Source: a virus
DNA length: 37,415 nt
Strand: one strand, 5' to 3'
IMG/VR virus record: IMGVR_UViG_3300032560_000060
Coordinates: 1-37,415 of that record
The translations under genes were made by a program, and so were the position numbers. The notes beneath the pieces were generated by a model. The model was given only the letters and a program-made list of their open reading frames with translations. It made no database searches and was not told the origin of the DNA. Position 1 is the stretch's first letter. Every line of letters starts with the position of its first letter. Below are positions 9,573 through 34,753 of the stretch, piece after piece.

Positions 9573-9582
9573 AAGTAATTCT
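9573..9582 (-). promoter_or_regulatory. AGAATTACTT motif upstream of the 9551 start
   Basis: One copy of the recurrent leftward motif, placed between the stop of the 9590 gene and the next start. Confidence 0.5.
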
Positions 9583-9589
9583 ATCTTGC

Positions 9590-9799
9590 CTATCCTTGCC
9601 TATCTTCTTTATCTTCTTTGTGGAATGTAACAATAGAAACAATACCAGCAATTGTAGCTGTAATAGCTGTATCATGGTCCTTCATAAAGCCTACACAAAA
9701 TAAAAATATAATAAGGCCAGATACAGCAATAAGAAGGCTACAATTTTTAGAACTGGCAGGGCTTTCCCTGTTGATTAAATCCCTAATATACTGAAACAT
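9590..9799 (-). CDS. Small two-span membrane protein, possible holin
   Basis: 69 residues with hydrophobic segments at about 22-38 (SLLIAVSGLIIFLFCVGF) and 44-60 (AITATIAGIVSIVTF) and a charged C-terminus (HKEDKEDRQG). Small size, two spans and a charged tail are typical of class II phage holins. It lies between virion genes without a neighbouring endolysin, so a structural membrane protein or immunity factor is also possible. Confidence 0.55.
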   Translation of the reverse strand: MFQYIRDLINRESPASSKNCSLLIAVSGLIIFLFCVGFMKDHDTAITATIAGIVSIVTFHKEDKEDRQG

Positions 9800-9800
9800 A

Positions 9801-10205
9801 TTAAGCAGATAATATGGTTCTTTTTACTAAATCAGCATGAATTAGGGTATCAGCCATTGAAGCAATAGCATCTAATAGGTCTGTGGTAGGAACAGTAGCA
9901 GCTAATGGAGCTAAATCAGCACCCTGTAAGCTAATAGAGCCTGTATAGGGGTCCTGTCCATTCATAGGGCCTGTAGGCAAAAAGTTGGTAGGCATAGTGG
10001 CAGCAGGAATATTTCTTTGAACCACATTTAGCTTATTACCAGAGGCATCAACAATATAATCTGTTCTTGAATACTGAATATTAGCAGAGAATGAAGCTAC
10101 TAAATGCCCATTAGCATCTGGTGACATTGTTCTGTTAAAGCTGATATTGTTAGCAGCATACTCTGAAGCAAGAGTAGCTGAGGTGTTAGGTAGGGTTACT
10201 GACAT
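9801..10205 (-). CDS. Hypothetical protein of the fibre cluster
   Basis: 134 residues starting MSVTLPNTSATLASEYAANN, with no membrane segment. The first half is beta-like with polar spacing; the end is helical (DLLDAIASMADTLIHADLVKR). GAGGA lies about 6 bases before the ATG, and an AGAATTACTT motif is 17 bases upstream. It follows the giant fibre gene closely and is probably a virion or fibre-assembly protein. Confidence 0.6.
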   Translation of the reverse strand: MSVTLPNTSATLASEYAANNISFNRTMSPDANGHLVASFSANIQYSRTDYIVDASGNKLNVVQRNIPAATMPTNFLPTGPMNGQDPYTGSISLQGADLAPLAATVPTTDLLDAIASMADTLIHADLVKRTILSA

Positions 10206-10222
10206 TTTATTTCCTCATATAA

Positions 10223-10232
10223 AAGTAATTCT
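10223..10232 (-). promoter_or_regulatory. AGAATTACTT motif upstream of the 10205 start
   Basis: Copy of the recurrent leftward motif just after the giant fibre gene and before a separate GAGGA ribosome binding site. Confidence 0.5.
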
Positions 10233-10236
10233 TGTA

Positions 10237-13200
10237 TTAATATTTGATTCTTGCAAAACCAGGTAATCCTGTTCCAGCAGAACCAGAGGTTCCACCACCT
10301 TTTAGAATGTTCTGACCCTTACCACCAGAACCATATACTTGTGAGCCCTGTCCTGCATCATAGGGAGACACTCCACCAAGACCACCGGGCTGAGTGGATC
10401 CACCACCAGAATTATAGGTAGCACCATCATTTCCACTATTACCTGTGCAATTCCAGCCCAATTCAGGAGTAGGATAGTAAACAGTTCCTACACCAGAGCC
10501 AACAGCACCAGTTTGACCTGTAGCAGTAGCACCTACAGAGGCAGAATATAGAATGGTTCCAGAGTAAGAGCCTGTTCTAAAGTTTACTGTTCCAGAATCA
10601 AAGCTAATGTAATAGGTAGTAGCTGGAGTTACAGATATTACCTTTTGAATATAATTACCAGCAGCACCACCACCACCCGCCCAAGCCAAAGATGTTCCAG
10701 GACCACCATCACCACCTTTACCTTGTAGAGTTAGGGTTACTGAAGTAATACCTTGAGGACAAACCCAAGTTCCATTAGAAGTCCAAGTAGGAGTATTACC
10801 CTTGACTCTATTTGCAATTACAGCAGCTTGTAAACCACCTACATTAACATCACCACCAATTTCCATATAGCAATTGGTATTATTTGTTCCATCCAAATAA
10901 TATGTAGTAAATGGATTACCAGCTAACTTAAATCCTACAGGTGCAGTTGAACCTGAACCAGCAGCATAGGCGGAAGAAGTAATTACTGAAGTTGTTACAA
11001 TGTTGGCTGCTAAAGCCTGGGCACCAATAGCACCAGCAGATATTAGACCAGCAGTAATTTTAGGCTGAACTGTATTTGCTACATTCTGCCAAATCCAATT
11101 GGAACCATTCCAAAGATACATTCCACCTTTATCACCATTAGAATCAGTTCCATCTGTAGCATACCAATAAGGGTAGAAATTGGTTGGAGGTGTCCAAGCA
11201 TACATTTGGCTTAATGTTCCTACCTTTGGGGCAGTAGCATTAGCAACAGCAGCCTGTAATGTAGCTGCATTAGTTCCAATGTTACCCATATGTAGAACAA
11301 GGTTATTATTATAGCCTAAATATAGGTCCATATTAGGATTAGAAGAATCCCAGGCACCTGTAGAATTACAATTAGCTATTTTTGCTTCATTACTTGTTAG
11401 ATTACCAAAACCAATATATTGACCTGGATTATTTAGAATCAAACTTGCAGAATTAGCATTATAACCCATTACTGTTAATTGAGTTCCGCCAAATGTTACA
11501 TTACCATTTGCTTGTGTTCTCATTGTCCAAATAGTTTGTGCTGAATTGAGAATACCAAACTCATAAGAAGAACTGGTAGGATTATTAGCCCAAATTGTAG
11601 TTCCAGTAGCACCAGACCAATAATTTGTAATTTGGGCACCATTAGAAACATTAAACCAGGAAGAATTAAAAGAACCATTTGCTGTTACATTTCCTGAAGT
11701 ATCACATTTCATCCAATAAGAATTATAATCTGTTCCAATAAATGTATAGCTACAAGTATCACCACCACCAAAGATACCAAAAGCACCAAGAAAGACACTA
11801 TTATCTGATTTTCTGGTTCCAAACATTTCAGACCATCCACCAGAGCCAGCCCTAATACCAACATATCCATAATTAGGATTAATAGTAATAGCTCTGTCAT
11901 TAGATGGACCAATGACAACAGTCATATCTGTATTTAATTGAAGGGTAAGATTTCCATTAGAGGCAGATTGACCATCTGCTGTATTATTTGTAAAGAATTG
12001 ACCATAACCACCAGTAGCAGTATTTCCAAACCTAATTTCATTTACACCATTATTACCAAGTTGTAAAACACCTGTTCCACCACCTCTTGAACAAAGTTGT
12101 GTAGTATAGGTGGTAGGATAAGAATAGTTAGCTATAGTTAATGAATTATAAGCATTAATAGTTCCATCAACCTGTAATAACAAGTCACCAGGAGGTGTAG
12201 ACCATACACCAGTTGATGTGACTTGACCTAATCTTAATTTATGGTTTGTATTATCATTACCAATACCAAAATAGTTAGAACCTAACCAATTTCCTACATA
12301 TCCTGCTGTTGTATAATTGATAGCAATGGTATATGGTGTCTGAGCCCAAGATGTAGCATTAATTCCAGAAGCTGATACTGTTCCAGGTGTAGTTATATTC
12401 TGATAGAAGTAATGTCCTGAAGAACCTGCTGTATCATAATGACAATATGAACTATTTAACATTCCAATCTTTGTTAAACCTGATGCTGTTTGAATACCTA
12501 AGTTATTTAAACCTACAGAACTCACCTGAACAGAATTAGGCATTAATAAAGCACCAGCAAAGTATGCTGAACCTGAACCTTGTAAACTTAGAACTTGAGT
12601 AGAACCAAGCATAAAGTTAATGGCGGTAGTGCTGGCAGTATAACTATTTCTAAAAGTAAGGGCAGTATTTCCTAAATCACTATAATCTATTGAACCTTGC
12701 CAGGAAGAGTTATTACCAAGTAAAATACACCCTCTTCCACCACCAGCACCGGAAAATTGACTCCAACCATAGAATAATGCTTGCTGATAACTTGCATTAT
12801 TAGCTGTCAATGAACCCATGCTAACAGGGCCACCAAATAAGCTTTGTGCTGCTCCTGGACTATAAATAGCATAGGTATTTGTTACTGTTATATTTGGAAT
12901 AGCTGTATTATCTTCAATCCACAAACCAGCAAGATTAGTTAATGTATTTCCAGTAATTGTTCCTGTTGTTGGTCTGGGAGCATAAAAAGTGGCAGAGTTT
13001 GTAAGTGTTGCAGCAGAATTAGCTCCTCCAGGATTATTACCTAATAGTAACTGACCACCAACAGCATATAAATTAGTATGTACACCACCTGCAACTGCAA
13101 CTCTACCCCAAACACCATAAGAGTTTGTTATTGTTCCAGAACCTCCTGAAAGTATTGCAAATCCATAAGCTCCTACTACATAGCCAGAAGTGCTACTACC

Positions 13201-15222
13201 AGCATGATTTGCAATAAATCCACCAGCTATCATTTGAGCAAATGGAGAATTACCTTGTTCATTTATTGTTGAATAAACACCAAGCAAGCTTGGAGTACCA
13301 GCAGTTTGTGTTATGTTTAATACTTGTCTAATTCCACCTTTATTATTAGCAGTTGTAGTGGTTATATTTTGTACTTGGTCTATTAACATGCCATCAAAAG
13401 TAGAGTTTTGATAAATATTGCCAGCAACACCAATAGATTGTGTCCTTAAAGAACCAGTATTGACTGAAGTTGATGCTGTAGTATCAGTAAAGATTCCATC
13501 AACACTTGTTATTGTTCCAAGATTATTAATGTAGGATGTAGTTAATGTAGCTGTAGCAGGATTAAACTTTAATCCTGTAGAAGATGTTTCAAGAGTATTA
13601 CCACCAGCAGTAGTAGCAAAGACAGGATAATATGTAGCATTTGTGCTATTATTATCTGTTAAGCTGATTGAACCACCACCAGTTCCAGCAGCCCAGGTTC
13701 CATCTGCCCTTAAAAAGTTTGTAGTGCCACCTGAAGAGGTAGGAACCAGACCAGCAGTAGAACCAGAGAAGGATGGAACAGATAAGGTTCCAGAGGTGGT
13801 ATCAACAGCTAAACCAGCACCAGCTATTACAGCACCAGGAACAGAGGTAGTAGCTAATTTAGGTGTTTTGGTAAATATTAAATTATCAAACCATAATTCA
13901 CCAGTATAACCATTTACATTAGCATAGACAATACAATATACACCTGTAGCAGTATAAAAGCCTATTCCAGATTGAGGTGTTCCATATGGAGCATTATAAG
14001 TAGTGCCAGCACCATAATAATTATAATAATTTGTTCCACCTGATAAGGTTCTCTGAACAGGTAGTAATTGTGTCCATGTTCCAGGTGTAGTATTTAAGCC
14101 AATTGGAACAGTTAGAAACATTCCAGTATGAGCATTAGTAATAGGATTATTTGAAGCATCATAGAATACAACACTTATAGTAGCATCATGTTGGCCTGGG
14201 AATGTTCCAGTATTATTAGGAACACAGACCATACCAGATAAGTCAAATACATCACCTATATTACATAAAATCTTATCAGTTAAAGCATAAGAAGCAGGAG
14301 TAATACCAGAATGGTTAATAGCTCTGACATATCTTGAACCTAAATAACCTTGATTAGTAGTATCATAAACAAGATTACCACCAGTTCCAGACATAGGGCC
14401 AAGTTCAGAGGTTCCATTAGGTATATAATTACCACCTGAACCTAAAGAACCATTGTTTATATTGTTAATAGCAGTTTGAATTGTATTGTTTAAATTGGTA
14501 ATATCAGTAAATACAGTTTGCCAAGTAGCAGACCATGTAGAAGGAACAATGTTGACAATGGTATTAGCTACCAGCCATCCAGACAGACCTGTAAGATAAG
14601 TATTTAAAGCAGCTAAATCAGTAGCAAGGGTAGCATAAGATGAAGCAGGTAAACCAACAGCTAAAGCCTCTGTCTGTAAGGCTGTTTGTTCTGCTACCAG
14701 GCTATTGTAATCAGCATTAGCTATTACCTGTTGTGCTGGCGAAAGCTGATTAAAAGCAGCAAAACCTAATACAGTAGTTTCTAATGTTGATAATGAAGCA
14801 TATGTGCTATCAGCAGAAGTAGCTATAGAGGCTTGAGCATAATTAAGGGTTTGTGTTCCTACTGTCTGTGATAGATAGGCTGTGAAGGTTCCAGATGGAA
14901 TTACATTAGGAATAAGGCTGTTTACAGTTAATCCAGGTATGGTTATGGTCTGCCATACAGGATTGACAGGCATTGAACCTTGATAAGAAATATAATTTAA
15001 TGTCCAAGAGCCAGCAGGACCAGGAAGGGTAAGGGCTGAATTGACCTGGACAGATGGCAAGCCTGTAGAAGAAATGGTAGGTAGAGAAAGGGTTAGATAG
15101 CTATTAGATAATTGATTGAAGGCAGGTAATGGGTATTCAGCCTGCACAGTAGGTCTGGGTAATACTGTTGAATCACAGCTAATTGTTGTGCCAGATTTAA
15201 CATATTGAATCTTGGTAGACAT
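10237..15222 (-). CDS. Giant tail fibre / central tip protein (1661 residues)
   Basis: The largest protein in the window. The N-terminal 120 residues are beta-rich; about 130-260 is a helical segment (LETTVLGFAAFNQLSP); about 265-455 resembles a carbohydrate-binding jelly roll ending in WFDNLIFTK; then comes a long repetitive beta stalk with many Asn, Thr, Gly and Ser. Near residue 530 a segment YYPVFATTAGG is shared with the collagen-like fibre. The last 120 residues are a Gly-rich domain (GGGGAAGNYIQKVISVTPATTYYI to GFARIKY). It occupies the place of a lambda J-type tip fibre after the hub gene, and its start overlaps the upstream stop as TAATG. Confidence 0.8.
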   Translation of the reverse strand: MSTKIQYVKSGTTISCDSTVLPRPTVQAEYPLPAFNQLSNSYLTLSLPTISSTGLPSVQVNSALTLPGPAGSWTLNYISYQGSMPVNPVWQTITIPGLTVNSLIPNVIPSGTFTAYLSQTVGTQTLNYAQASIATSADSTYASLSTLETTVLGFAAFNQLSPAQQVIANADYNSLVAEQTALQTEALAVGLPASSYATLATDLAALNTYLTGLSGWLVANTIVNIVPSTWSATWQTVFTDITNLNNTIQTAINNINNGSLGSGGNYIPNGTSELGPMSGTGGNLVYDTTNQGYLGSRYVRAINHSGITPASYALTDKILCNIGDVFDLSGMVCVPNNTGTFPGQHDATISVVFYDASNNPITNAHTGMFLTVPIGLNTTPGTWTQLLPVQRTLSGGTNYYNYYGAGTTYNAPYGTPQSGIGFYTATGVYCIVYANVNGYTGELWFDNLIFTKTPKLATTSVPGAVIAGAGLAVDTTSGTLSVPSFSGSTAGLVPTSSGGTTNFLRADGTWAAGTGGGSISLTDNNSTNATYYPVFATTAGGNTLETSSTGLKFNPATATLTTSYINNLGTITSVDGIFTDTTASTSVNTGSLRTQSIGVAGNIYQNSTFDGMLIDQVQNITTTTANNKGGIRQVLNITQTAGTPSLLGVYSTINEQGNSPFAQMIAGGFIANHAGSSTSGYVVGAYGFAILSGGSGTITNSYGVWGRVAVAGGVHTNLYAVGGQLLLGNNPGGANSAATLTNSATFYAPRPTTGTITGNTLTNLAGLWIEDNTAIPNITVTNTYAIYSPGAAQSLFGGPVSMGSLTANNASYQQALFYGWSQFSGAGGGRGCILLGNNSSWQGSIDYSDLGNTALTFRNSYTASTTAINFMLGSTQVLSLQGSGSAYFAGALLMPNSVQVSSVGLNNLGIQTASGLTKIGMLNSSYCHYDTAGSSGHYFYQNITTPGTVSASGINATSWAQTPYTIAINYTTAGYVGNWLGSNYFGIGNDNTNHKLRLGQVTSTGVWSTPPGDLLLQVDGTINAYNSLTIANYSYPTTYTTQLCSRGGGTGVLQLGNNGVNEIRFGNTATGGYGQFFTNNTADGQSASNGNLTLQLNTDMTVVIGPSNDRAITINPNYGYVGIRAGSGGWSEMFGTRKSDNSVFLGAFGIFGGGDTCSYTFIGTDYNSYWMKCDTSGNVTANGSFNSSWFNVSNGAQITNYWSGATGTTIWANNPTSSSYEFGILNSAQTIWTMRTQANGNVTFGGTQLTVMGYNANSASLILNNPGQYIGFGNLTSNEAKIANCNSTGAWDSSNPNMDLYLGYNNNLVLHMGNIGTNAATLQAAVANATAPKVGTLSQMYAWTPPTNFYPYWYATDGTDSNGDKGGMYLWNGSNWIWQNVANTVQPKITAGLISAGAIGAQALAANIVTTSVITSSAYAAGSGSTAPVGFKLAGNPFTTYYLDGTNNTNCYMEIGGDVNVGGLQAAVIANRVKGNTPTWTSNGTWVCPQGITSVTLTLQGKGGDGGPGTSLAWAGGGGAAGNYIQKVISVTPATTYYISFDSGTVNFRTGSYSGTILYSASVGATATGQTGAVGSGVGTVYYPTPELGWNCTGNSGNDGATYNSGGGSTQPGGLGGVSPYDAGQGSQVYGSGGKGQNILKGGGTSGSAGTGLPGFARIKY

Positions 15223-15692
15223 TAGAAAGCTCCTAATGTCTTGGTAGATACAATATTACCACCTCTTAAAGTAATAGATAATCCAGTAACAAAGTTTCCA
15301 ATCATTACACCAAAGGAATTAACCTTTACCTGATTAATAACAAAACCACCTGTTGTTAATCCAGGACTAAAAGATAAAAATCCTGGTGCTGTATCTAAAA
15401 CAGACATTAAACCATCAAAGGTTAATTGATTACCATTAGATGTTCCAATGGTATAACCATATCTGTTATTAACATCATCATAAATAGACCATGTTAATTC
15501 AATTTGTGGTATGAAACCTAATCTTCTATTACTTTCAGCACCATTATACAATACAGAATTAATACCTTTTTCTTCCCAAGATAATTTAATATCAGAAGGT
15601 GCTGGGAGATAAAAAGTAGCTGTTTTACTTCCACTTCCACCAGGGTCTAATGTTGCTATTCTTAATGGTCCAATATTTAATTGTGTAGTCAT
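15222..15692 (-). CDS. Tail tip or baseplate accessory protein
   Basis: 156 residues, beta-rich, starting MTTQLNIGPLRIATLDPGG; ends at VSTKTLGAF. It contains WSIYDDVNNRYGYTIG and LSITLRGGNIVS. Position between the tail hub and the giant fibre suggests a tail-tip component. The stop overlaps the ATG of the 10237 gene by one base (TAATG). An AGAATTACTT motif lies 19 bases upstream of the start, and no strong Shine-Dalgarno sequence is visible. I cannot name a family. Confidence 0.55.
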   Translation of the reverse strand: MTTQLNIGPLRIATLDPGGSGSKTATFYLPAPSDIKLSWEEKGINSVLYNGAESNRRLGFIPQIELTWSIYDDVNNRYGYTIGTSNGNQLTFDGLMSVLDTAPGFLSFSPGLTTGGFVINQVKVNSFGVMIGNFVTGLSITLRGGNIVSTKTLGAF

Positions 15693-15710
15693 TATTGATT
15701 AATCTCTAAT

Positions 15711-15720
15711 AAGTAATTCT
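15711..15720 (-). promoter_or_regulatory. AGAATTACTT motif upstream of the 15692 start
   Basis: Copy of the recurrent leftward motif in the 37-base gap after the tail hub gene. Confidence 0.5.
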
Positions 15721-15729
15721 CTTGCTTTA

Positions 15730-18570
15730 TCAGTTCTGTATTAAAGTAACATCAGCAGTTCCATTTATATAATCATTCTCAAGGCTCATTAATCTATATT
15801 GAATAGAGCCATTAATGGTTAGAAGTTGGAAGGGCTGTAAAGAATCCCAAGGTGTAGCTGTTGTGCTGTCTGGATAGGTCCAGCTTTGATTAGACAGGCT
15901 CCTGGGCTTGCCAAACCACATAGAAAGGGCATCAGACATAGCCTGGGCTTGTGATACATGCCAGACCATAGGATGTCCAGAGATAGTTAATAGCTTTCCA
16001 CCATCTTGATTAGTTCCACCTTGGCTAATAGGTAATGTATCAGCATAATAAGTTCCATCTTGTGTTTCTACCAATGTAATAGAATAAAAATCAGGCCAAC
16101 ATAAGGTATTGTCTATTTTTGTTTGTAAGATATTGGTTATATTGGTAGCAGTTTCAGAATTGTTTCTGCTAATAATCTTCATTGTTCCATTAGGTAATGG
16201 ATAGGCCATACAGTTTTGAAGCTGGGAAGCATGTTCTATTACTGATAAGGCTGTCTGTCCAGATGGATTAAATCTCTCTACACAGTAAGGAACCACAGTA
16301 TCAACCTGGAATACAGAGCCTCCAAGATGCCCTATAATTCTTCCTGTCTTGCTTGGGTCCCTCATAGCCTGGGCAAAGATTGGGAAGCCTTCTCTAATAG
16401 GTTCTGATAAGGCAATTGATTTATTAGCAGAAGCAGCAGGAGTAGAAGATAATAGGTATGACCATGTTTGAGATATGGTAGAGCCTGAATTATCTTGAGT
16501 TGTTAAACCACCTAAAATAAAACATTGAGTAGAATTAATAGCTACAAATGTATTAGGATAGAAATTAGATACAGTTCCAACATCAAATACAGCAGGAGTA
16601 ATAGATAATGTGGTTCCAGAATAATTTATCTTTGCATAAGCAGAAGAAGATATTAAATAGGCTCCATAAGGTGTAACAGCTAATTCTGGATTTACTATAT
16701 TAGATGGTATATTACATTGATACATAGCAGAGCCAGTATCTATTTCTAATTTTCCATCTATGGTTACACCAAGAATAGAACCAGCAGGACCAGTAGGGAA
16801 GTTTGAAATGCTACTTAACTTGTTTGTAAATCTCCATGTTAGATTTGTGCCTGTATTCCATCCTGTTCCATTCCAGGTAGAAGAAACCACCTGTGCTGTA
16901 TTAGAGGCTACTGTAAGCCTTCTCATAGAAAGGTAATCATAGAAAACAAGAGCAGGAAGAGTTATCAAATTAGATGTGGTGGTGCTATCTATCCATCCTG
17001 AAGGCATTTTGGTATAAGGTGCTGTAAATCCACTTATCAGAGCTACAGAGCCAGTATTAGGTGTTGGTCCATTGTCTTGTCCTGTTCCAGAGAAATTGTT
17101 ATAGGCTATATTTCTCCATCTGGCATTAGCTGATAAGGTTTTAGTTTCATAGAACATTAAGCTTGAAGGTGCTGATAATAATTGGTTTGTCCAGTCAGCA
17201 TGTAGGGTAGCTGGATAGCTGGAGTTTCTGTTACTTGTCCATCCAGAATCTATATTTCCTGTAAAGTTTGTAGTTATGCCAGAAATTAAATTACAGCCTG
17301 TTAATGTAGGCTCCATATCAGAAATAGAAGATAAAGAACATGAATTAGAATTATAAGGCTGTGAAGAGACAAAACCAAATATAGGTTCAATGGTTTGAGC
17401 CTGGGTAAATCTTGATAGGTCTAAATTGAAGGGTAGAGTAGCCTTTGTTAAGATGGTTCTAACATCAGTCATTACTACATCATTAGCTGTATCAGTGTCA
17501 AAATATATTCTGATATTAGCAGAAGGGTCCAAGTTTGTAATATCTTCTTTGACATAAATATAACAAGCTTCAGGATTTACAGCTAATACTGTATAAGTAG
17601 CAGAGTATGTTCCATTGACACAACAAAGAATATCACCAGGAATAATACCATTTACAGAATCTAAATAGATATAGCTATGGGCATTATCTTTAGCTAATAC
17701 AGTGAAATAAGAATTGGCAGTTGTATTAGCAGCTTGAACAGTAAATGATTTTTGATAGAAGGAAGAGTAGACATTTCCACCACCTCCAACAATAGTTGAA
17801 TTAGAATCTAAAGATGAACCACCAGAGCCAGCAGCAGTAGGCCAAGGTGTGTTAGATAAAACAATGGCAGATAAAACAGAACCATTAGCTACCCAATTAG
17901 GTAGACTTGCATAAGATAAATAGCCTATACCTGCTAAAGCCTGCCAACCATAAGAAGGTGATAAAATAACATCAATTACATTATAGGTATTTGCTACACC
18001 ATTGGTTTGAAAGCTGATTTGGTCGCCAGGAGAAACAGCCTGTGTAGCATCCCCTACAAAGAAGATATAATTGTTATATTGATTGATACCATGATAATTA
18101 ATTATCTCACCATAAGCAGAATAGCCTGTAAATGGGTATGAAGATTTAGCATTATTAGATGTAGGATTGGGCCTTTGCCATCCTGCTAAATATTGATTAG
18201 CTAATTCAATAGACCAATCTTGAGCAGATAATTCTATTGAATAACCACTTGCTGAATTATGCTGAACAATATTTGTAGGGTCAATGATACCAGTAAAAAC
18301 AATATTGCTATCAACAGTTAAGGTAATGTATGGAGGATATAAGGCATTTGTAGAAGCTAATTGTGTCTGTATAAAGGTCCAGGCAGAGCCAGTAGGGTCT
18401 GTAAACTCTACTGTTAAATCACTTGGTTTAATCTTGGTTAGCTGGTCGCCACTATCTAAACTCCATGATTGTTTACCTATCTTTGTTACAGGATAACCAG
18501 TAACCAATAGGTTATTGCCTATCATAGCTGTGCCAAGGTTCTGATATAGATTTACCACCAATGACCGCAT
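15730..18570 (-). CDS. Tail hub / baseplate protein with large central insertion
   Basis: 946 residues. The start (WSLDSGDQLTKIKPSDLTVEFTDPTGSAW, then ITLTVDSNIVFTGIIDP and YSIELSAQDWSIELANQYLAG) looks like the first domains of siphophage tail hub proteins. Hub-like sequence resumes near residue 780 (SGQTALSVIEHASQLQNCMAYPLPNG then KIISRN). Between them are several hundred beta-rich, Ser/Thr/Asn-rich residues, including kelch-like patches (CFILGGLTTQDN), which suggest an inserted propeller or carbohydrate-binding module. It would sit at the distal end of the tail tube. The gene follows tape measure plus GIY-YIG, and its ATG overlaps the GIY-YIG stop (TAATG). Confidence 0.65.
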   Translation of the reverse strand: MRSLVVNLYQNLGTAMIGNNLLVTGYPVTKIGKQSWSLDSGDQLTKIKPSDLTVEFTDPTGSAWTFIQTQLASTNALYPPYITLTVDSNIVFTGIIDPTNIVQHNSASGYSIELSAQDWSIELANQYLAGWQRPNPTSNNAKSSYPFTGYSAYGEIINYHGINQYNNYIFFVGDATQAVSPGDQISFQTNGVANTYNVIDVILSPSYGWQALAGIGYLSYASLPNWVANGSVLSAIVLSNTPWPTAAGSGGSSLDSNSTIVGGGGNVYSSFYQKSFTVQAANTTANSYFTVLAKDNAHSYIYLDSVNGIIPGDILCCVNGTYSATYTVLAVNPEACYIYVKEDITNLDPSANIRIYFDTDTANDVVMTDVRTILTKATLPFNLDLSRFTQAQTIEPIFGFVSSQPYNSNSCSLSSISDMEPTLTGCNLISGITTNFTGNIDSGWTSNRNSSYPATLHADWTNQLLSAPSSLMFYETKTLSANARWRNIAYNNFSGTGQDNGPTPNTGSVALISGFTAPYTKMPSGWIDSTTTSNLITLPALVFYDYLSMRRLTVASNTAQVVSSTWNGTGWNTGTNLTWRFTNKLSSISNFPTGPAGSILGVTIDGKLEIDTGSAMYQCNIPSNIVNPELAVTPYGAYLISSSAYAKINYSGTTLSITPAVFDVGTVSNFYPNTFVAINSTQCFILGGLTTQDNSGSTISQTWSYLLSSTPAASANKSIALSEPIREGFPIFAQAMRDPSKTGRIIGHLGGSVFQVDTVVPYCVERFNPSGQTALSVIEHASQLQNCMAYPLPNGTMKIISRNNSETATNITNILQTKIDNTLCWPDFYSITLVETQDGTYYADTLPISQGGTNQDGGKLLTISGHPMVWHVSQAQAMSDALSMWFGKPRSLSNQSWTYPDSTTATPWDSLQPFQLLTINGSIQYRLMSLENDYINGTADVTLIQN

Positions 18571-19046
18571 TATACTACCTTATTCCATCTTTTATAAACT
18601 GCTTCAGATATTTTAGCTTTATGTTCCTGTGTTTTTGGTTTAGACATTTTAGCTATTGTTTCTTTAGATTTTAATTTTCCTGTGTGGGATATAGACATTT
18701 TATTTTTTGTTTTTATAGACATTTGTTGCTTAGCAATAGACATTTTTTCTTTTGTTTCTTGTGATAAATTCCACTTACATCCTAAATTTGAACCAGCTAT
18801 TTTACATATGTTGTATTCTGGTTTAAATATGTTTATACATTTCTGTTCAAAGTATAGTAAATCAACCTTTATAGGATTACAATTAGCAAGTATTTCAAAT
18901 ATAAAATTTTCTTTGCCATATTTATTAAATGCTGCTGTTAGATGTTTGTTGTATTTACCTGACCATCTTTTTTCAATGTTAACAGATGAACCAATATAAC
19001 ATTTATTGTTAATTGTATTAGTAATAATATATATTCCAGATGACAT
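18570..19046 (-). CDS. GIY-YIG homing endonuclease (free-standing, first copy)
   Basis: 158 residues. GIY at 4-6, YIG at 17-19, catalytic R27 and E67 (LLYFEQK) are all present. The C-terminal half has NUMOD3-like DNA-binding units (LSQETKEKMSIAKQ, then SKETIAKMSKPK and TQEHKAKISEAV). Such enzymes cut an allele lacking the gene and spread by repair. It is inserted between the tape measure and hub genes, with no intron features. Its stop overlaps the hub start as TAATG, so it has been fitted into the operon without breaking it. AAGG lies about 10 bases before the start. Confidence 0.88.
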   Translation of the reverse strand: MSSGIYIITNTINNKCYIGSSVNIEKRWSGKYNKHLTAAFNKYGKENFIFEILANCNPIKVDLLYFEQKCINIFKPEYNICKIAGSNLGCKWNLSQETKEKMSIAKQQMSIKTKNKMSISHTGKLKSKETIAKMSKPKTQEHKAKISEAVYKRWNKVV

Positions 19047-19061
19047 TATTAAACCTTATTT

Positions 19062-21452: not shown

Positions 21453-21461
21453 CTATTATCC

Positions 21462-22045: not shown

Positions 22046-22055
22046 AAGTAATTCT
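22046..22055 (-). promoter_or_regulatory. AGAATTACTT motif upstream of the chaperone gene
   Basis: Copy of the recurrent motif between the terminator that follows the major tail gene and the chaperone ribosome binding site. After a terminator, a new promoter would be expected about here. Confidence 0.55.
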
Positions 22056-22068: not shown

Positions 22069-22098
22069 AAAAAAGAAGGGTCCATTTCTGAACCCTTC
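22069..22098 (-). terminator. Leftward terminator after the major tail protein gene
   Basis: On the minus strand, GAAGGGTTC pairs with GGACCCTTC (one mismatch) followed by TTTTTT. It would limit transcription of downstream tail genes relative to the abundant tail tube protein. Confidence 0.8.
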
Positions 22099-22815: not shown

Positions 22816-23028
22816 TTATAAAATGTTTTCTTCTATAGGTAATTCTATTTCTACCTTATTTTCTACTACTGTTTCTACTTGTTTAATTTCTTCTACTGCT
22901 TCTACTACCTTAACACCTGGAAGGGCAAGATATTTATCTACATCTGATTCTATTACTTCTATTTCTTCCATAAGAGGAAGCCATAAACCTTCAATAAGAT
23001 AATTTTCTATTGTTGATATCAATTTCAT
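22816..23028 (-). CDS. Small acidic tail-region protein
   Basis: 70 residues, strongly acidic, with alternating Val/Glu repeats in the second half (VVEAVEEIKQVETVVENKVEIELP). It lies between the tail terminator and major tail genes with short gaps, so it belongs to the same transcript. It reads as an amphipathic helix and might be a small assembly factor. The repeat style resembles the VIEK stretch of the 2760 gene product. I do not recognise it. Confidence 0.5.
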   Translation of the reverse strand: MKLISTIENYLIEGLWLPLMEEIEVIESDVDKYLALPGVKVVEAVEEIKQVETVVENKVEIELPIEENIL

Positions 23029-23040: not shown

Positions 23041-23457
23041 TTATGTAAAATATTCTATTTCTAAATCTAATGAAGCACCACAGATTTGACCTTGGCTTAT
23101 TTGTTCATTAGCCCATTGGATAGACTGTCTTTCAACATATACAGCTAAACCATTTAATGTTCTATCAGCTTTAATAGCATCAGATATAGAATTAATAACA
23201 GGAGAACAGACAATAGAAGCAGGACCACCTAACATTCTTAATTCAATTCTTAATGCTAATTTCTTCTTCTCACTATTACTTGAGCTATCATCATAAATAA
23301 ACTCTTCTCTAACTGGATACACAGCTATAGCAGGTAGGTCTGAATATATAAGGTTTAGAGGCTCATCATTATTTATATTTGTTATAGAATAGGTAGATAC
23401 AGCAGATGTTATATCTGATATTACCTGTGCTATAATTGCTACATTGTTTGTAAACAT
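23041..23457 (-). CDS. Tail terminator protein (lambda U-like)
   Basis: 138 residues with LRIELRMLGG, DAIKADRTLNGLAVYVERQSIQW and a C-terminal GASLDLEIEYFT, the pattern of siphophage tail terminator proteins, which cap the finished tail tube and join it to the head. It is followed by the small acidic gene and the major tail gene, and its ATG overlaps the preceding stop (TAATG). Length and position agree with the family. Confidence 0.8.
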   Translation of the reverse strand: MFTNNVAIIAQVISDITSAVSTYSITNINNDEPLNLIYSDLPAIAVYPVREEFIYDDSSSNSEKKKLALRIELRMLGGPASIVCSPVINSISDAIKADRTLNGLAVYVERQSIQWANEQISQGQICGASLDLEIEYFT

Positions 23458-23765
23458 TAATTAGCCTTACTTATATACATTTTTAATTCTAAACCATTAT
23501 TTAATGTGATATACTTGTTAATTTTATAATTAATATCATCAATCAATATATTATCATTATTCTTTATTGTGCCTAATGAGCCTGTAGCTATTGTAAATGT
23601 TAGAGAAGTATCATTTACAGCATATTGCTTATTATTCATCTGTAAGGCTTCTGTAGGTTCATTAAATAGAATACCATAGGTGGTATAACCATTATATTCA
23701 GCCTTGATACCAGCCTTTTTCATTACATATGTTAAATGTTTGCTAAATAAGTCATTCATATTCAT
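23457..23765 (-). CDS. Head-tail joining protein (lambda FII-like)
   Basis: 102 residues with an N-terminal helix (MNDLFSKHLTYVMKKAG) and then a beta domain (GYTTYGILFNEPTE to LELKMYISKAN) typical of small head-tail connector subunits of the FII group. It lies between the capsid and tail terminator genes, as in lambda. The stop overlaps the next ATG as TAATG. A terminator-like hairpin lies upstream, between it and the capsid gene. Confidence 0.75.
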   Translation of the reverse strand: MNMNDLFSKHLTYVMKKAGIKAEYNGYTTYGILFNEPTEALQMNNKQYAVNDTSLTFTIATGSLGTIKNNDNILIDDINYKINKYITLNNGLELKMYISKAN

Positions 23766-23781
23766 AGATAACCTCTAAAGA

Positions 23782-23820
23782 TAAAAGCCAGCACCAGTTT
23801 TCAGGTGATACTGGCTTTTA
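23782..23820 (-). terminator. Terminator-like hairpin after the capsid gene
   Basis: TAAAAGCCAG pairs perfectly with CTGGCTTTTA, with a second inner CACC/GGTG pairing. The stem is flanked by A and T runs on both sides, so it could act in either direction. It separates the very abundant capsid message from the connector genes. Confidence 0.75.
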
Positions 23821-23836: not shown

Positions 23837-25792
23837 TTAAGATAACTTGAAGTTACCACATTTAGCAAAAGCATTAGGCTGTAATACACCAATGTCTACA
23901 TACTGGCGAGCAGTAAGAATAGTGATACCTTCAGAGAAGCGAGTTTGAATGTCAACCATAAACTCTGTTGGACCCATTAAGGCAATTTCAAGATTAGAGA
24001 AATCACCAAAAATTAATGTGTGGTAAAGACTTGAAGCTATTGGAACATTGGTAGAGGTGAAGGCTTTGTAACCATTAATCTTGCCAGCATCAGCAATTGG
24101 GAAACCAGCACCACCAGAGAACTTGGCAGTAGTTTCAAGAACACCCATTAAACCAGGGGTAGTAATGAAAGCAGACTTATCTAAATCTACTGCATACTGG
24201 TCAACAAGAGCCTTTAGGTTATTAACAGAGGTAAAGGTAGGAACAGCAGAGGCACCAAGATTACCATTCTGGATGCTGGAAGCAGCAGATAGTAAACCAT
24301 TGACAGTATAGGCACCAGTTACACCATTGATAGCCATGTTATCAATAGCTAAGGCAAACTGTTTAACCATGTCGCCTCGGAGAACTTCCTGGAGGTCAAC
24401 AATAGATTCTTTCTGGAGTTCATCAGTTAGATAAACAGTAGAAACTAAAGCATGGGGTGTATAGGGAACCTTTACAAAGTCAACATAGCTATTAGTTGGA
24501 ACACCAGAATCTTCAGCCTTGTTTACAACAGTAGTAGCTACTGACTGGCGAAGATAGCTTAAGCTACCAGAGCCAGAGCGAGTTTTAGCACCAGCAGAGA
24601 GACAGACAGCGCGGGCGCGAAGTAGGTCAAGGAAGCCAATATTCTGTTGATAGACAGCATTAGCCCCATATTGACCAGTAGTCATGTTGGAAGCAACAGT
24701 ATCACCAGACCAGTTATCGGCGCGAGTGAAGAGGTCAGCAGTAAAGGCTCTTTCACCCTTTTGATTAATAACACCAGCTAAACTCTCATCAAGATTCTTA
24801 AAATCTCCCTTAATGGCATTAGCTAATCCTCGGTATAACATTTCATTAGTTAGCATGTTTCTATTTTCCTTTATAAGTATTATGCTTTGTTCTTTTGTAT
24901 TAAGAAGCTCTTTCCTGGCTTCTGTAATATCAGTTGTTCTTGATAGAATTAAATCTATCTCTACTTCAGTTTTTAATTTTTGTGCTACAGCAATATTTCT
25001 TAAAGCAAGTAATTCAGTATTAAGTAATTCTGTTTTATCATTAATTTCTAATGACCTTTTATTATCTTCTTCATCTAATTCTTCATTAACTTCTAATGGA
25101 GTAGCTTCTACTGGTGTTTCACCAGCAGGTATTTCATCCTCTGAAGTCTCTGCTACAGGCTGTTCAGCCTCTTCTGTGGCTTCTTCAGTAGCCTGGACTT
25201 GCTCTAATGCCTCTACAGCAGCTACACCTTCTGTTAGCTCTGTCTCTATGGCTTCTTCAAGCTGGGCTTCATTAACTTCAGCTTCTTCATCTTCTGTATC
25301 TGCTCTGCCAACTCCTACAGAGTTATCAGCAGGTAAACCTACCAAGCTTCCTTCATATGGTTGCCATTTGGTTACAAGGAAATCATTAGGTGTATCTTCT
25401 AATTCAGCTTTTCTAACCTTATAATCAAGGATTCTATAACCTATAGAAACATCAGAAATAATACCATCTAAAATATCTTGTCTTACAGATTGGGCATCTG
25501 CTCTACCAGAGAAATAAGCATCACCTCTTAATTTCTTTGTATCAGAATCTAATCTGATATTCTTTAATCTTCCAACAGGTAATGTAGTATCATCATGATT
25601 AATTAATAGAGGTAAACCATTAGGCATTGTCCTGGACATATCAATATTGTCTACATTGTGTAGTAGTATTTCATTTCCAAAACTTCTTAAAACAGGTGTT
25701 TCAGAAGATAAAGACATTGAGATAAAGGTATTATCTTCTTTAGCATTATCTATAGCAAAGCTTCTTACTTGCCTTAATTTATATTTCATCAT
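23837..25792 (-). CDS. Prohead protease - scaffold - major capsid fusion
   Basis: 651 residues in three parts. Residues 1-165 are an HK97-type prohead protease with H66 (LLINHD) and S116 (SDVSIGY) as likely catalytic residues and YEGSLVGLPAD after them. Residues 165-312 are acidic and coiled-coil-like (EEATEEAEQPVAETSEDE) and should act as a scaffold or delta domain removed on maturation. Residues 313-651 are an HK97-fold capsid protein (NIGFLDLLRARAV, GDMVKQFALAIDNMAING, FGDFSNLEIALMGP). An AAAGGA site precedes M313, so capsid protein may also be made alone. Arginine codons differ sharply between the halves. AAAGG precedes the first start; M1 or M2 may be used. Confidence 0.92.
   Translation of the reverse strand: MMKYKLRQVRSFAIDNAKEDNTFISMSLSSETPVLRSFGNEILLHNVDNIDMSRTMPNGLPLLINHDDTTLPVGRLKNIRLDSDTKKLRGDAYFSGRADAQSVRQDILDGIISDVSIGYRILDYKVRKAELEDTPNDFLVTKWQPYEGSLVGLPADNSVGVGRADTEDEEAEVNEAQLEEAIETELTEGVAAVEALEQVQATEEATEEAEQPVAETSEDEIPAGETPVEATPLEVNEELDEEDNKRSLEINDKTELLNTELLALRNIAVAQKLKTEVEIDLILSRTTDITEARKELLNTKEQSIILIKENRNMLTNEMLYRGLANAIKGDFKNLDESLAGVINQKGERAFTADLFTRADNWSGDTVASNMTTGQYGANAVYQQNIGFLDLLRARAVCLSAGAKTRSGSGSLSYLRQSVATTVVNKAEDSGVPTNSYVDFVKVPYTPHALVSTVYLTDELQKESIVDLQEVLRGDMVKQFALAIDNMAINGVTGAYTVNGLLSAASSIQNGNLGASAVPTFTSVNNLKALVDQYAVDLDKSAFITTPGLMGVLETTAKFSGGAGFPIADAGKINGYKAFTSTNVPIASSLYHTLIFGDFSNLEIALMGPTEFMVDIQTRFSEGITILTARQYVDIGVLQPNAFAKCGNFKLS
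24854..24872 (-). promoter_or_regulatory. Internal ribosome binding site and start for the capsid domain
   Basis: AAAGGA at 24872-24867 is followed after 10 bases by ATG (24856-24854), in frame as M313 (MLTNEMLYRGLAN). Internal starts that make a second product from a head gene are known in lambda (Nu3 inside C). Here it would yield a 339-residue capsid protein without the protease. Confidence 0.6.
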
Positions 25793-25808: not shown

Positions 25809-25818
25809 AAGTAATTCT
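25809..25818 (-). promoter_or_regulatory. AGAATTACTT motif upstream of the protease-capsid gene
   Basis: Copy of the recurrent motif, 16 bases before the first ATG and separate from the AAAGG ribosome binding site. Confidence 0.5.
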
Positions 25819-27423: not shown

Positions 27424-27966
27424 TTATAAATTAAAATAAACAGAACCAATGGAAGGCTTACCATCTTCCATTCTTACTCTTTGCATATAAAAGGCTCTTA
27501 AATCTAATAGACCTTTTCTATCTAATCTCATGGTGGTGCTACCTATGGTGTATTCCTGAACATCAGAACCAGCACCATCAGCAAGACATTTTTCTATATC
27601 ATGTAGAGCCTTCTTATTAGGGCTTCTTGGGTCATTAACACCTTCTGCCGTTAAATCAGCCTTAATTAAAGCTTCTGAATAACCTAATGTTGTTTTAATA
27701 CCTAATGGAGAAGTTAAGAAGGCAGATATTGTATATAAACCAGCTTTGTAGGCTGTGGTAGTAGCTGCTGGAATAGAAAATGTAAATATATTGCCAGCTA
27801 CAGAAGAAGATGTAATTATTATTGGTGCTAATCCTTGCTTTTTAAATACATAAGATAATGTATAGCCAGTTGTATCTAAACTAAAGCTATCTACATTAAT
27901 ATAGAAAAGCCAATCATCACCAGCTTGATATACATTATTTTTAAATACTGATACTGACTCAATCAT
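27424..27966 (-). CDS. Neck protein: Ig-like domain plus gpW-like domain
   Basis: 180 residues. The N-terminal 110 form a beta-sandwich type domain (AGDDWLFYINVDSF, TTGYTLSYVF, AYKAGLYTISAFLTSP). The C-terminal 65 (KKALHDIEKCLADGAG, DVQEYTIGSTTMRLDRKGLL) resemble lambda gpW, the head-tail joining protein between terminase and portal genes. The combination is familiar in phages of this type. AAAGG precedes the start, and an AGAATTACCT motif lies about 28 bases upstream. Confidence 0.75.
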   Translation of the reverse strand: MIESVSVFKNNVYQAGDDWLFYINVDSFSLDTTGYTLSYVFKKQGLAPIIITSSSVAGNIFTFSIPAATTTAYKAGLYTISAFLTSPLGIKTTLGYSEALIKADLTAEGVNDPRSPNKKALHDIEKCLADGAGSDVQEYTIGSTTMRLDRKGLLDLRAFYMQRVRMEDGKPSIGSVYFNL

Positions 27967-27994: not shown

Positions 27995-28004
27995 AGGTAA
28001 TTCT
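27995..28004 (-). promoter_or_regulatory. AGAATTACCT motif upstream of the neck gene
   Basis: Copy of the recurrent motif in the short gap after the large terminase stop. Confidence 0.5.
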
Positions 28005-30482: not shown

Positions 30483-30541
30483 GTAAGCCTATTAAAGACA
30501 AGATTAATGATTTGTATCAAGTTTTGTGTAGAAAAAGCAAA

Positions 30542-30560
30542 GCGTCTGCGCGGCACCCGC
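30542..30560. other. cos: Candidate cos site
   Basis: A GC-rich 19-base island in AT-rich DNA, directly upstream of terS, with interrupted dyad symmetry of the form GCG-N2-TGC-N3-GCA-N2-CGC centred on 30551. cosN sites of lambda-type phages are GC-rich, imperfectly symmetric and next to the small terminase gene. Overhang position and length cannot be told from sequence alone. The 30483-30677 interval otherwise holds only one small doubtful frame. Confidence 0.6.
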
Positions 30561-30575
30561 TAAAACAGAACCTTT

Positions 30576-30662
30576 TTAGAGGACCCGGCAGAAATAGCAG
30601 GTGGACATACCTTTAAGTAATGCCTTTGTATATCCTATTGTGCTGGCTTGTTTAGTTGTCAT
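30576..30662 (-). CDS. Doubtful 28-residue reading frame near cos
   Basis: MTTKQASTIGYTKALLKGMS then TCYFCRVL, starting 15 bases after the preceding gene, with AAGAG about 9 bases upstream. It ends shortly before the cos island. It is short and unrecognised; it may be coding or just a spacer. Confidence 0.25.
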   Translation of the reverse strand: MTTKQASTIGYTKALLKGMSTCYFCRVL

Positions 30663-30677
30663 GTTGATTACTCTTGC

Positions 30678-31364
30678 TTACTTCTTTGCAGATGCTAATG
30701 CTTCAGACAATACTTGTGATGCTATGATGTTGTATCTATATTGAATAACATTGGTAGCTGTCTGATACCAAGCTATCTTCTTTGGTCTGTTAGAATGTTT
30801 GATTAAGGTATACAGAAGCCTTACACCAGTCTTTCTATTGGTGCCTCTTTTCCTCTTCCTATTATCATCTGGTGATGTTCTTTGTAGAATTAAAGGTGTT
30901 CCAGTTTCTTTGCTGTGAATTAAAAAGGTTCTTTCTAATCCCTGTATACCAAACTTGGTTTTATTAAGCTGTAGATTCTTAACCTTTAAGGGATTATCTG
31001 GACCAATGATAGAATTACCAAATACCTTTGGGTTAGGCATTGTTAGCCATGTATGCCCTTGATATGGTATGTGTTCAGCACCAGTTTCAAAGTCTGATAA
31101 GTAAGCTAAAGTAATAGGCATTTCAATAGTTACTGACATTCTTGTCTTGGTTGCCCATTGACCCTTATTAATCTTTACCTGTGATATAACCCAGGGCCTT
31201 CTGATATGAAGATTTTGTGAAAGCATTATCTTTTCATCAGTTTGAATCTCTTTAGCAACTGTATTTAAAACCTTACTGAGAATGAAACCAGATTGATTAT
31301 CTTGCCCTAATTCTCGCAACTGATTAAGTATAGACTCTGAATTAATGGTAAGTTTTACTTGCAT
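30678..31364 (-). CDS. Putative virion protein, gpZ-like
   Basis: 228 residues. FILSKVLNTVAKEIQTDEK, the RRPWVISQVKINKG stretch, GLERTFLIH and a C-terminal RYNIIASQVLSEALA resemble the layout of lambda gpZ-type minor tail/neck proteins (N-terminal helix pair, beta core, C-terminal helix). In lambda Z lies after the capsid; here the gene is upstream of terS and cos, which would be unusual. It starts at the TAATG overlap with the second GIY-YIG gene. The family assignment is tentative. Confidence 0.45.
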   Translation of the reverse strand: MQVKLTINSESILNQLRELGQDNQSGFILSKVLNTVAKEIQTDEKIMLSQNLHIRRPWVISQVKINKGQWATKTRMSVTIEMPITLAYLSDFETGAEHIPYQGHTWLTMPNPKVFGNSIIGPDNPLKVKNLQLNKTKFGIQGLERTFLIHSKETGTPLILQRTSPDDNRKRKRGTNRKTGVRLLYTLIKHSNRPKKIAWYQTATNVIQYRYNIIASQVLSEALASAKK

Positions 31365-31906
31365 TATGAAGCCTTTATATATCTATTCTTAGCAGCAATA
31401 GACATTTTTAATCTTGTTTCATCTGATACTGGTTTTCTAATTCTGTTACTTGCAGCAATAGACATTTTTAATCTTGTTTCATCTGATATTATATCCCGCT
31501 GTTTAGCTATTTCTGACATTAATAATTTTGTTTTTTCTGAAAATGGATTTCTAAACTGTTTACTTGCAGCAATAGATATTTTTAATCTTGTTTCTTCATT
31601 AGGTTTTCCACCCTCACCACCTAATGTCTTGTTATATCCAACAGCGGGATTAGAAGCATCCGATAAATAAATTAAATCTGTTTCATATTCATTTAATAGT
31701 GAACCATCACAATATATAATAGGTTCAAAGGTAAAAGCGGTAGGACCATACTTATTATAAGAAGCCTGTAAATGTTTATTTTTGTGTTTATTATTTTTTA
31801 GCTGATAATTATGATTATACAGTCTATTGGTTAAATCCGTAGATTGACCAATATAAATCTTACCATTGATTGTATTAGTAATTTTATAGATGCCTGAGTT
31901 GTTCAT
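31364..31906 (-). CDS. GIY-YIG homing endonuclease (second copy)
   Basis: 180 residues. GIY 5-7, YIG 18-20, R28 and E75 (LNEYETDLI) form the nuclease site. The C-terminal half has four NUMOD3-like units, three nearly identical (DETRLKMSIAAS). It is clearly related to the 18570 protein but distinct in sequence. Its stop overlaps the next ATG as TAATG, the same junction type as the first copy. It is placed between the sigma-like gene and the gpZ-like gene. Start context is poor in Shine-Dalgarno character and contains an AGAATTACTT motif. Confidence 0.88.
   Translation of the reverse strand: MNNSGIYKITNTINGKIYIGQSTDLTNRLYNHNYQLKNNKHKNKHLQASYNKYGPTAFTFEPIIYCDGSLLNEYETDLIYLSDASNPAVGYNKTLGGEGGKPNEETRLKISIAASKQFRNPFSEKTKLLMSEIAKQRDIISDETRLKMSIAASNRIRKPVSDETRLKMSIAAKNRYIKAS
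31391..31599 (-). repeat. Three direct DNA repeats inside the GIY-YIG gene
   Basis: Near-identical copies of about 35 bp at 31391-31428, 31452-31489 and 31566-31599 encode the ETRLKMSIAAS units of the DNA-binding tail. Their high nucleotide identity implies recent duplication or gene conversion. Confidence 0.75.
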
Positions 31907-31910
31907 ATAT

Positions 31911-31920
31911 AAGTAATTCT
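31911..31920 (-). promoter_or_regulatory. AGAATTACTT motif at the second GIY-YIG start
   Basis: Copy of the recurrent motif only 4-5 bases before the ATG, so here it may double as the ribosome binding region. Confidence 0.4.
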
Positions 31921-31927: not shown

Positions 31928-32602
31928 TTAATCTAATATGCTGTGATTATATTTCTCTGTCAGTAATGTTAGTGAGGTTTCAATGATGATTTCTGGTAAT
32001 TTTGTTATTTTTACCATATGCTGTATGAGCATTTTTCTATCAGAACAGTTATACATGCTTTCATCATTTATTACCAAAAGTAAGGCATCAATGATTGTAG
32101 AGAGTGTTTTACCTGCTGATTCTTTCTTTAATTCTGTTAAAAAGATTGTGAAGTCTAATAGGTTGATAAATGGTGAAATACTTGTTTCTGTATCCCATTC
32201 TTCATCTAATGAATAATGCTTATTTATATATTTAGTGCTTGCTGTTAATTGGTCCTTTAATTTAAAATTACAGATAAGAGTTAGATAGGTATATAGGCGA
32301 CCATTTCCAGGTTTATATTTAGGTAAATGTTGTAAGACAATGAGACACAGATTATTAAAGACTTCAGTTTTCTCTAAACCATTAGCATCATTCATAAATC
32401 TAACATATCTGACAATGATAGACTGAAGCAAGGGGAAGCAGTAAACAAGTATTCTGGTATCTTCATTGTTAATTACCCATGCTTGATAAAGAAATTGTGC
32501 TACATCCTCTTTAAAATAATGAGTAGATAAAACAGTATCATCTAATTCATTTAATACATCTTGTTCTATCTTAAATACATCTTCTAAATTAAATAAATCC
32601 AT
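31928..32602 (-). CDS. Sigma-factor-like protein (possible late-gene sigma)
   Basis: 224 residues. Residues about 48-130 (ILVYCFPLLQSIIVRYVRFM, then VFNNLCLIVLQHLPKYKPGN, GRLYTYLTLICNFKLKDQL) follow the plan of sigma-70 region 2: a helix pair, an L-x3-LPKYKP-type turn, then the YTYLT...NF...DQL helix. T4 gp55, a small late sigma, has a comparable layout. The C-terminus (DRKMLIQHMVKITKLPEIIIE) could be a helix-turn-helix. It is in the leftward block just upstream of the structural genes, where a late regulator would be expected. Similarity is judged by eye and is weak; a helical protein of other function is possible. Confidence 0.4.
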   Translation of the reverse strand: MDLFNLEDVFKIEQDVLNELDDTVLSTHYFKEDVAQFLYQAWVINNEDTRILVYCFPLLQSIIVRYVRFMNDANGLEKTEVFNNLCLIVLQHLPKYKPGNGRLYTYLTLICNFKLKDQLTASTKYINKHYSLDEEWDTETSISPFINLLDFTIFLTELKKESAGKTLSTIIDALLLVINDESMYNCSDRKMLIQHMVKITKLPEIIIETSLTLLTEKYNHSILD

Positions 32603-34009: not shown

Positions 34010-34453
34010 TTATAAAAGCAGATAAATAATGTAAATAATTCCTGTAGCTAATAAAATCTTATATATCCATATTTTGATACCATCTTGTGTTATTAGGGCC
34101 TGCTGGGGCTTAATTACAGCATCAGAAGCAGAGATAACAGCTTGAAGGGCTTGAATAGCAGCTAAATCCTCTGTTTCTCTTTTCTGTAATTCACTCATTT
34201 CATCAGAGGTTAAAACAGTCCCAACAGAAACCACCTCTGTTAGAGGTCTGGTCTGTTGTCTTTTTTGAACTACCTGGACAGATACAGAAGCCCTATCCTT
34301 AGCCTCTGATAGCTTTTTCTTGACCTCTGAAATGACTTGGGGTAGGGTAGGGTGCTTTTCAGTCCTATTTAAGCTGTGGAGGTGATAATAAGCAATTGAT
34401 GATACCAATAGGATAGGTATTAATAGATAGGATGTTAATTTTAGATTAATCAT
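34010..34453 (-). CDS. Membrane protein with N- and C-terminal spans
   Basis: 147 residues with hydrophobic segments at about 7-23 (SYLLIPILLVSSIAYY) and 127-147 (IWIYKILLATGIIYIIYLLL) and a helical, charged middle (VISEVKKKLSEAKDRASVSV). The topology is like an inner-membrane protein with a periplasmic coiled coil, compatible with a lysis, exclusion or spanin-like role, but no family is recognised. It is the first gene of the leftward block. AGGA lies 10 bases before the start within AGGAATTACCTATTATG, a motif variant, and a terminator lies directly upstream. Confidence 0.55.
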   Translation of the reverse strand: MINLKLTSYLLIPILLVSSIAYYHLHSLNRTEKHPTLPQVISEVKKKLSEAKDRASVSVQVVQKRQQTRPLTEVVSVGTVLTSDEMSELQKRETEDLAAIQALQAVISASDAVIKPQQALITQDGIKIWIYKILLATGIIYIIYLLL

Positions 34454-34456
34454 AAT

Positions 34457-34466
34457 AGGTAATTCC
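34457..34466 (-). promoter_or_regulatory. GGAATTACCT motif at the first leftward gene
   Basis: Variant of the recurrent motif that includes the AGGA ribosome binding site of the 34453 gene. Confidence 0.4.
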
Positions 34467-34470
34467 TGAC

Positions 34471-34497
34471 AAAAGAAAAGCCTTCACAGAGGAAGGC
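34471..34497 (-). terminator. Leftward terminator just before the first late gene
   Basis: On the minus strand, GCCTTC pairs with GAAGGC over a 6-base loop, followed by TTTTCTTTTG. It lies between the divergent control region and the 34453 start, so transcripts from upstream would stop here unless antiterminated. Confidence 0.65.
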
Positions 34498-34514
34498 AGA
34501 TAGAAAACTGAAGC

Positions 34515-34552
34515 TAATATATCTATATAATATATATATCTATAATATATAC
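34515..34552. repeat. AT-only low-complexity tract
   Basis: About 38 bases of nearly pure TA/TAT repeats. Such tracts melt easily and occur at origins and strong promoters; here it lies in the control region between two terminators. Confidence 0.4.
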
Positions 34553-34685
34553 CTGTTACCCTTTGGCGCATATACATATGTCGGATGAAATGACCTGAAA
34601 CAGAAGGGTTAATTTTCAAGAGGCAAAAATATTTTAATAAGAGGATAAAGAATAGGTAGTAAGAAGGGTAATAGAGTAGAAATAA

Positions 34686-34707
34686 TAAAAGCCCTTGATT
34701 GGGCTTT
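34686..34707 (-). terminator. Second leftward terminator-like hairpin
   Basis: AAAGCCC pairs perfectly with GGGCTTT over a 6-base loop. On the minus strand it is followed by TTATTATTT. It is a weaker terminator than the one at 34471 and is placed close to the AGAATTACAT copy. Confidence 0.5.
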
Positions 34708-34743
34708 ACAAAAAATATTCTATATGTTCGCTCGCGCTCCATA

Positions 34744-34753
34744 ATGTAATTCT
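34744..34753 (-). promoter_or_regulatory. AGAATTACAT motif in the divergent control region
   Basis: Most upstream copy of the recurrent leftward motif, about 290 bases ahead of the first gene and ahead of both leftward terminators. The 98-residue leftward frame starting at 34742 looks spurious (AT-driven hydrophobic codons), so this is non-coding DNA. Confidence 0.4.

Follow-up and report, generated by a model that had tools for sequence, protein, structure and literature searches.

Lambda Q, ArpU, and Xpf control the late genes of their phages and are each encoded just ahead of terminase, and late regulators of temperate phages are usually encoded between RusA and terminase. Lambda Q is an antiterminator that works at a single late promoter rather than at a large number of dispersed boxes. 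The late box of phage T4 is TATAAATA. Each T4 late promoter consists of one short box near -10, with the -35 region not conserved, and about 50 copies are dispersed in T4; this box is read by gp55, a small phage sigma factor of which region 2 is the part that was modelled (PMC2988020). Sigma factors are encoded by about 13% of the phage genomes in one database, some temperate Bacillus phages included (PMC9429907).

The window analysed here is an IMG/VR virus record of 37,415 bases. It belongs to a small, temperate phage of an uncultured freshwater lineage, and its gene content has the layout of a temperate, lambda-like siphovirus. Besides the integrase gene, it carries on the minus strand genes for RusA, the small and large terminase, head-tail joining, portal, a protease/capsid fusion, the tape measure, and tail proteins, including a collagen-like tail gene. 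The order is RusA, a 123-amino-acid ORF, ORF 31928-32602, an endonuclease, a minor tail gene, and then the small and large terminase. A DNA search of the phage collection with bases 1 to 25,000 of the window gave no near match. The same phage was present in three other IMG/VR contigs, with 100% DNA identity over 7.7 to 11 kb.

The window resembles T4 in having dispersed single boxes without a -35 element together with a phage protein, the product of ORF 31928-32602, whose similarity to sigma region 2 is remote and below the Pfam cut-off. It differs in its consensus, which is AGAATTACYT and not TATAAATA or a near variant, and in being a 37-kb temperate phage. The 28 proteins scanned gave no clamp-like PHROG match. 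A profile (HMM) of 11 gp55 proteins scored ORF 31928-32602 at about 0 bits; the system may work like that of T4 gp55, but membership in the gp55 family fails by sequence. With SPO1 gp28 and gp34 and the sigma factors of temperate Bacillus phages, the window would share a phage sigma factor that redirects the host polymerase. For ORF 31928-32602, by contrast, tblastn of its protein against 50,697 phage records returned no close relative, even at E = 10. Its position just ahead of terminase is the slot of Q, ArpU, and Xpf, and searches of Pfam, PHROGs, and NCBIfam with E values up to 10 matched none of these families. We found no temperate siphovirus with this arrangement of sigma factor and dispersed boxes in the open-licence literature. 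Phage sigma factors are already known; what is unusual is that one should be paired with a regulon of dispersed boxes, as proposed here for a small temperate phage without close relatives.

The original prediction listed nine sites of AGAATTACYT, and all nine are present: those at 9573, 10223, 15711, 22046, 25809, 27995, and 31911 are exact, and those at 34457 and 34744 have one mismatch (Table 1). The list was incomplete, as the exact copy at 22837-22846 was overlooked.

Table 1. Box copies and associated features of the window (gaps are from box to ATG; PHROGs marks gene assignments that rest on it).
Feature	Sequence	Position	Strand	Remarks
Box	AGAATTACTT	9573..9582	-	Exact; 21 nt before 9141-9551
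Box	AGAATTACTT	10223..10232	-	Exact; 17 nt before 9801-10205
Box	AGAATTACTT	15711..15720	-	Exact; 18 nt before 15222-15692
Box	AGAATTACTT	22046..22055	-	Exact; 21 nt before 21671-22024; about 20 nt behind terminator
Box	AGAATTACCT	22837..22846	-	Exact; inside end of 22816-23028; 32 nt before 22124-22804
Box	AGAATTACTT	25809..25818	-	Exact; 16 nt before protease/capsid gene 23837-25792 (capsid: PHROGs)
Box	AGAATTACCT	27995..28004	-	Exact; 28 nt before head-tail joining gene 27424-27966 (PHROGs)
Box	AGAATTACTT	31911..31920	-	Exact; 4 nt before GIY-YIG endonuclease gene 31364-31906 (PHROGs)
Box	GGAATTACCT	34457..34466	-	One mismatch; 3 nt before 34010-34453; about 14 nt behind terminator
Weaker copy	AGAATTACAT	34744..34753	-	One mismatch; control region; matrix score 9.5 (low); function doubtful
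Weak copy (possible)	AAAGGCATTACTTAAA	30612..30627	-	Matrix score 13.1; gap ahead of small terminase gene
Intrinsic terminator		22075..22098	-	Stem of 10 bp plus T run; immediately before 22046 box; scan and fold
Terminator-like hairpin		34480..34497	-	GCCTTC, T-rich tail; ahead of 34457 box; scan and fold
Putative sigma-70 region 2-like protein, 224 aa		31928..32602	-	Proposed box reader; Pfam, NCBIfam, 30-sigma profile
Integrase		359-1468

The minus strand holds nine exact copies, eight of which lie no more than 45 nt upstream of a leftward start. These 45-nt upstream zones make up 3.7% of the window (binomial p = 3.2e-11) and contain no plus-strand copy. A search of both strands against a Markov background, proposed with the original prediction, supported the motif: about 2,070 intergenic bases contained seven exact copies on the gene strand and none on the other, compared with a mean of 0.05 and a largest count of 2 in 1,000 order-2 simulations. 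A one-mismatch scan of the window gave 34 copies versus 11.8 expected, and AGAATTACT and GAATTACTT were the most enriched upstream 9-mers. Among the leftward genes, 8 of the 15 preceded by a gap of at least 20 nt had the box, versus 1 of the 16 preceded by a smaller gap (p = 0.006). It was absent from several genes behind large gaps, with starts at 30482, 23765, and 33648.

Six exact copies occur on the plus strand. The claim that all copies share the orientation of the genes thus stands for the upstream copies and not for the window as a whole, and the raw plus-strand count comes close to the equal frequency that had been named as a refutation. This raw count is misleading because five of the six copies, all inside 6847-9138, are antisense to the GGT AAT TCT codons of a Gly-Asn-Ser repeat in the collagen-like tail gene. 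A codon repeat in one gene can mask the strand bias of a signal in a raw count. The motif is a well-supported regulatory element.

The element forms one block of approximately AACAGAATTACYTATA. Nine sites aligned on the box share (A/G)GAATTAC(C/T)T; the position two bases before the box is A or C, and the bases that follow it are mostly A/T. Conservation in these nine sites ends at the box edges, with no conserved column further upstream; a search upstream of the boxes revealed no -35-like element and no hexamer above shuffles. The box-to-ATG gaps of seven structural genes are 16, 17, 18, 21, 21, 28, and 32 nt, with the ribosome site between, and those of the copies at 34744, 34457, and 31911 are 1, 3, and 4 nt. 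For six structural genes, the earlier description of a motif 15 to 30 bases before the ATG was accurate (21, 17, 18, 21, 16, and 28 nt), as was that of a separate, purine-rich ribosome site. The gap is bimodal, either 1 to 4 or 16 to 32 nt with nothing between, which fits the expectation for leaderless messages or for leaders that barely accommodate a ribosome site.

ORF 31928-32602 matched Sigma70_r2 in Pfam with E = 7e-4 (19.7 bits, below the cut-off of 24), and its unrelated neighbours also draw Pfam matches near 1e-3. NCBIfam gave two matches only, both to sigma factors. Because weak Pfam matches occur for the neighbours too, an independent profile was built from 30 sigma region 2 sequences of five bacterial genomes. 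With this profile, ORF 31928-32602 ranked first among 26,530 ORFs of the window and related loci, scoring 18.0 bits with the next at 10.2, and the best of 2,000 shuffles reached only 9.8 bits. The alignment covers 75 of the 89 profile positions and takes in LPKYKPGNGRLYTYLTLICNFKLKDQL, which resembles regions 2.2 to 2.4. These scores point to a remote similarity to sigma region 2 that is above chance, and the ORF appears to encode a very divergent phage sigma factor. It is situated between RusA and terminase. The protein matched no PHROG in the PHROGs search, and a degenerate-peptide scan for the sigma signature gave the same phage and chance matches only. A profile search with PF04542 missed even the window's own ORF 31928-32602, so its blanks on relatives are uninformative. 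The single-sequence AlphaFold model had a pLDDT of 45, too poor to use.

Our preferred explanation, which we consider likely, is that AGAATTACYT is a late promoter box read by the sigma factor putatively encoded by ORF 31928-32602; that the box is a promoter of some kind is highly probable. We infer both that transcription starts at the box and that the ORF 31928-32602 protein recognizes it. AGAATTACYT would be the central part of a late promoter specific to the phage, a lone -10-like box without a -35 element, recognized by host core RNA polymerase carrying the sigma-like protein, with transcription beginning a few bases downstream. The sigma-like protein would be made in the early-to-late transition, as the position of its gene shortly before the terminase genes suggests. 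It would then turn on the structural and tail transcription units and the GIY-YIG endonuclease gene, and possibly drive its own cluster via the 34457 box. Short leaders would begin just ahead of the ribosome site, and messages would be leaderless or nearly so where the box abuts the ATG. The three copies that abut an ATG require leaderless messages or a wrongly assigned start, which counts against this explanation, as does the lack of a box at several genes behind large gaps. We lean slightly toward the further idea that this siphovirus-like phage has given up the customary late control, by antitermination or through an activator at a single promoter, in favour of a T4-style regulon of an orphan, highly divergent sigma factor and about ten dispersed single-box promoters, in which the 34457 box heads the sigma factor's own cluster and would provide positive feedback. 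If the preferred explanation is right, the window holds a compact pair of sigma factor and promoter, about 220 residues and a 10-base box. It would also extend a T4-like late strategy to small temperate phages from an uncultured lineage of fresh water, and a late-gene switch would prove recognizable from sequence alone in an orphan phage.

A promoter element could also be read by a host sigma factor or by an unrecognized phage activator while the sigma-like ORF does other work. Every line of evidence for a promoter serves this alternative equally, and the pairing of box and ORF is our own deduction. However, the box is unlike TTGACA/TATAAT, and the scanned half of the window shows no excess of sigma-70-like sites. 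If the box were an activator site lying before a promoter, transcription would start inside genes at box-to-ATG gaps of 1 to 21 nt. The sigma-like ORF also occupies the slot of a late regulator, and we regard this alternative as unlikely. Besides a promoter, the original prediction had offered an RNA processing site and a translation enhancer as candidates, and of the three the promoter is favoured: two copies lie directly behind intrinsic terminators, the element is a single block without a -35 element, and it is enriched at genes with upstream gaps. The sigma-like gene in the late-regulator slot, which did not figure in that prediction, lends the promoter further support, and the reading offered in that prediction is partly borne out.

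The other two candidates are disfavoured because the spacing is variable and bimodal, no RNA structure is shared, and little RNA is left behind a terminator. A processing or stability site at which a phage or host nuclease cuts polycistronic late messages would fit boxes that lie between genes and are oriented as the messages, and mapped ends would be indistinguishable from initiation without primary-end data. However, two copies lie only 14 to 20 nt behind terminators, where little RNA remains for cutting, and neither single-sequence folds around the box copies nor an Rfam search revealed a common structure or a family; we consider such a site improbable. The closeness of the box to start codons would suit a translation enhancer or the site of a translational regulator, but gaps that range from 1 to 32 nt beside a separate ribosome site do not describe a fixed-distance translation signal. 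Most short-gap genes, which need translation too, lack the box, and this explanation is very improbable. That the box is a chance or dispersed repeat of an AT-rich genome is scarcely credible: many one-mismatch copies occur elsewhere and six exact copies lie on the opposite strand, but the codon repeat accounts for the latter, conservation stops at the box edges, and the idea is already contradicted by the upstream position bias and the intergenic counts.

Relatives were collected as about 180 loci from TerL, capsid, tail, and sigma searches of IMG/VR and GTDB contigs. The search in related phages that the original prediction had called for did not find the motif in any of these loci that was tested for it or for upstream k-mers, the tail-module relatives L130, L242, and L243 included; the exception was further samples of this same phage, which at 100% identity are uninformative. 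With the same exception, the relatives tested had no detectable copy of the sigma-like gene, and among the loci searched no relative with both box and sigma-like gene was found, which counts against the pairing of the two. As no related contig tested carries the motif, the box element looks lineage specific. An upstream GAATATTAC in L107, an Opitutae-binned contig, was rejected as the same element, as it is a repeat inside small early ORFs; it occurs there in tandem pairs 15 nt apart (7284-7292, 10951-10974, and 11702-11725).

In the divergent control region, inverted repeats that resemble operators (TGTCCGATGAATGGACA and its variants) recur at 34822-34985, some of them 31 nt apart; they are probably repressor sites. 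Between this region and the leftward genes, a pair of consecutive terminator-like hairpins (34707-34688 and 34497-34480) may block early leftward transcription. The ORF at 34446-34742, which follows the 34744 copy with a 1-nt gap to its ATG, carries terminator-like hairpins inside, and it is doubtful that it is genuine. Two GIY-YIG homing endonuclease-like genes lie between late genes; that at 31364-31906 begins right behind a box and contains internal repeats of about 60 nt, and that at 18570-19046 is without a box. The 195-nt gap at 30483-30677 ahead of the small terminase gene holds a GC-rich structured stretch with no Rfam match, as well as the weak copy at 30612.

Inside the capsid gene, an exact minus-strand copy at 25022-25031 reads GAA TTA CTT in frame (Glu-Leu-Leu). 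It belongs to two box copies 15 nt apart at 25007-25031 (AGAATTACTT and TGAATTACTT), in frame as Glu-Leu-Leu within the protease/capsid fusion gene, a pair that is probably a coding coincidence or possibly serves the capsid part as an internal promoter. Directly after the capsid gene, a long and stable hairpin that ends in a T-rich tail (23776-23815) is likely a terminator; no box lies between it and the next gene, 23457-23765. The tail module at 15222-22804, comprising a 226-amino-acid gene, the tape measure, a 946-amino-acid gene, and a 156-amino-acid gene, is common, in whole or in part, to the high-GC contigs L242 and L243 (63 to 66% GC) and to L130.
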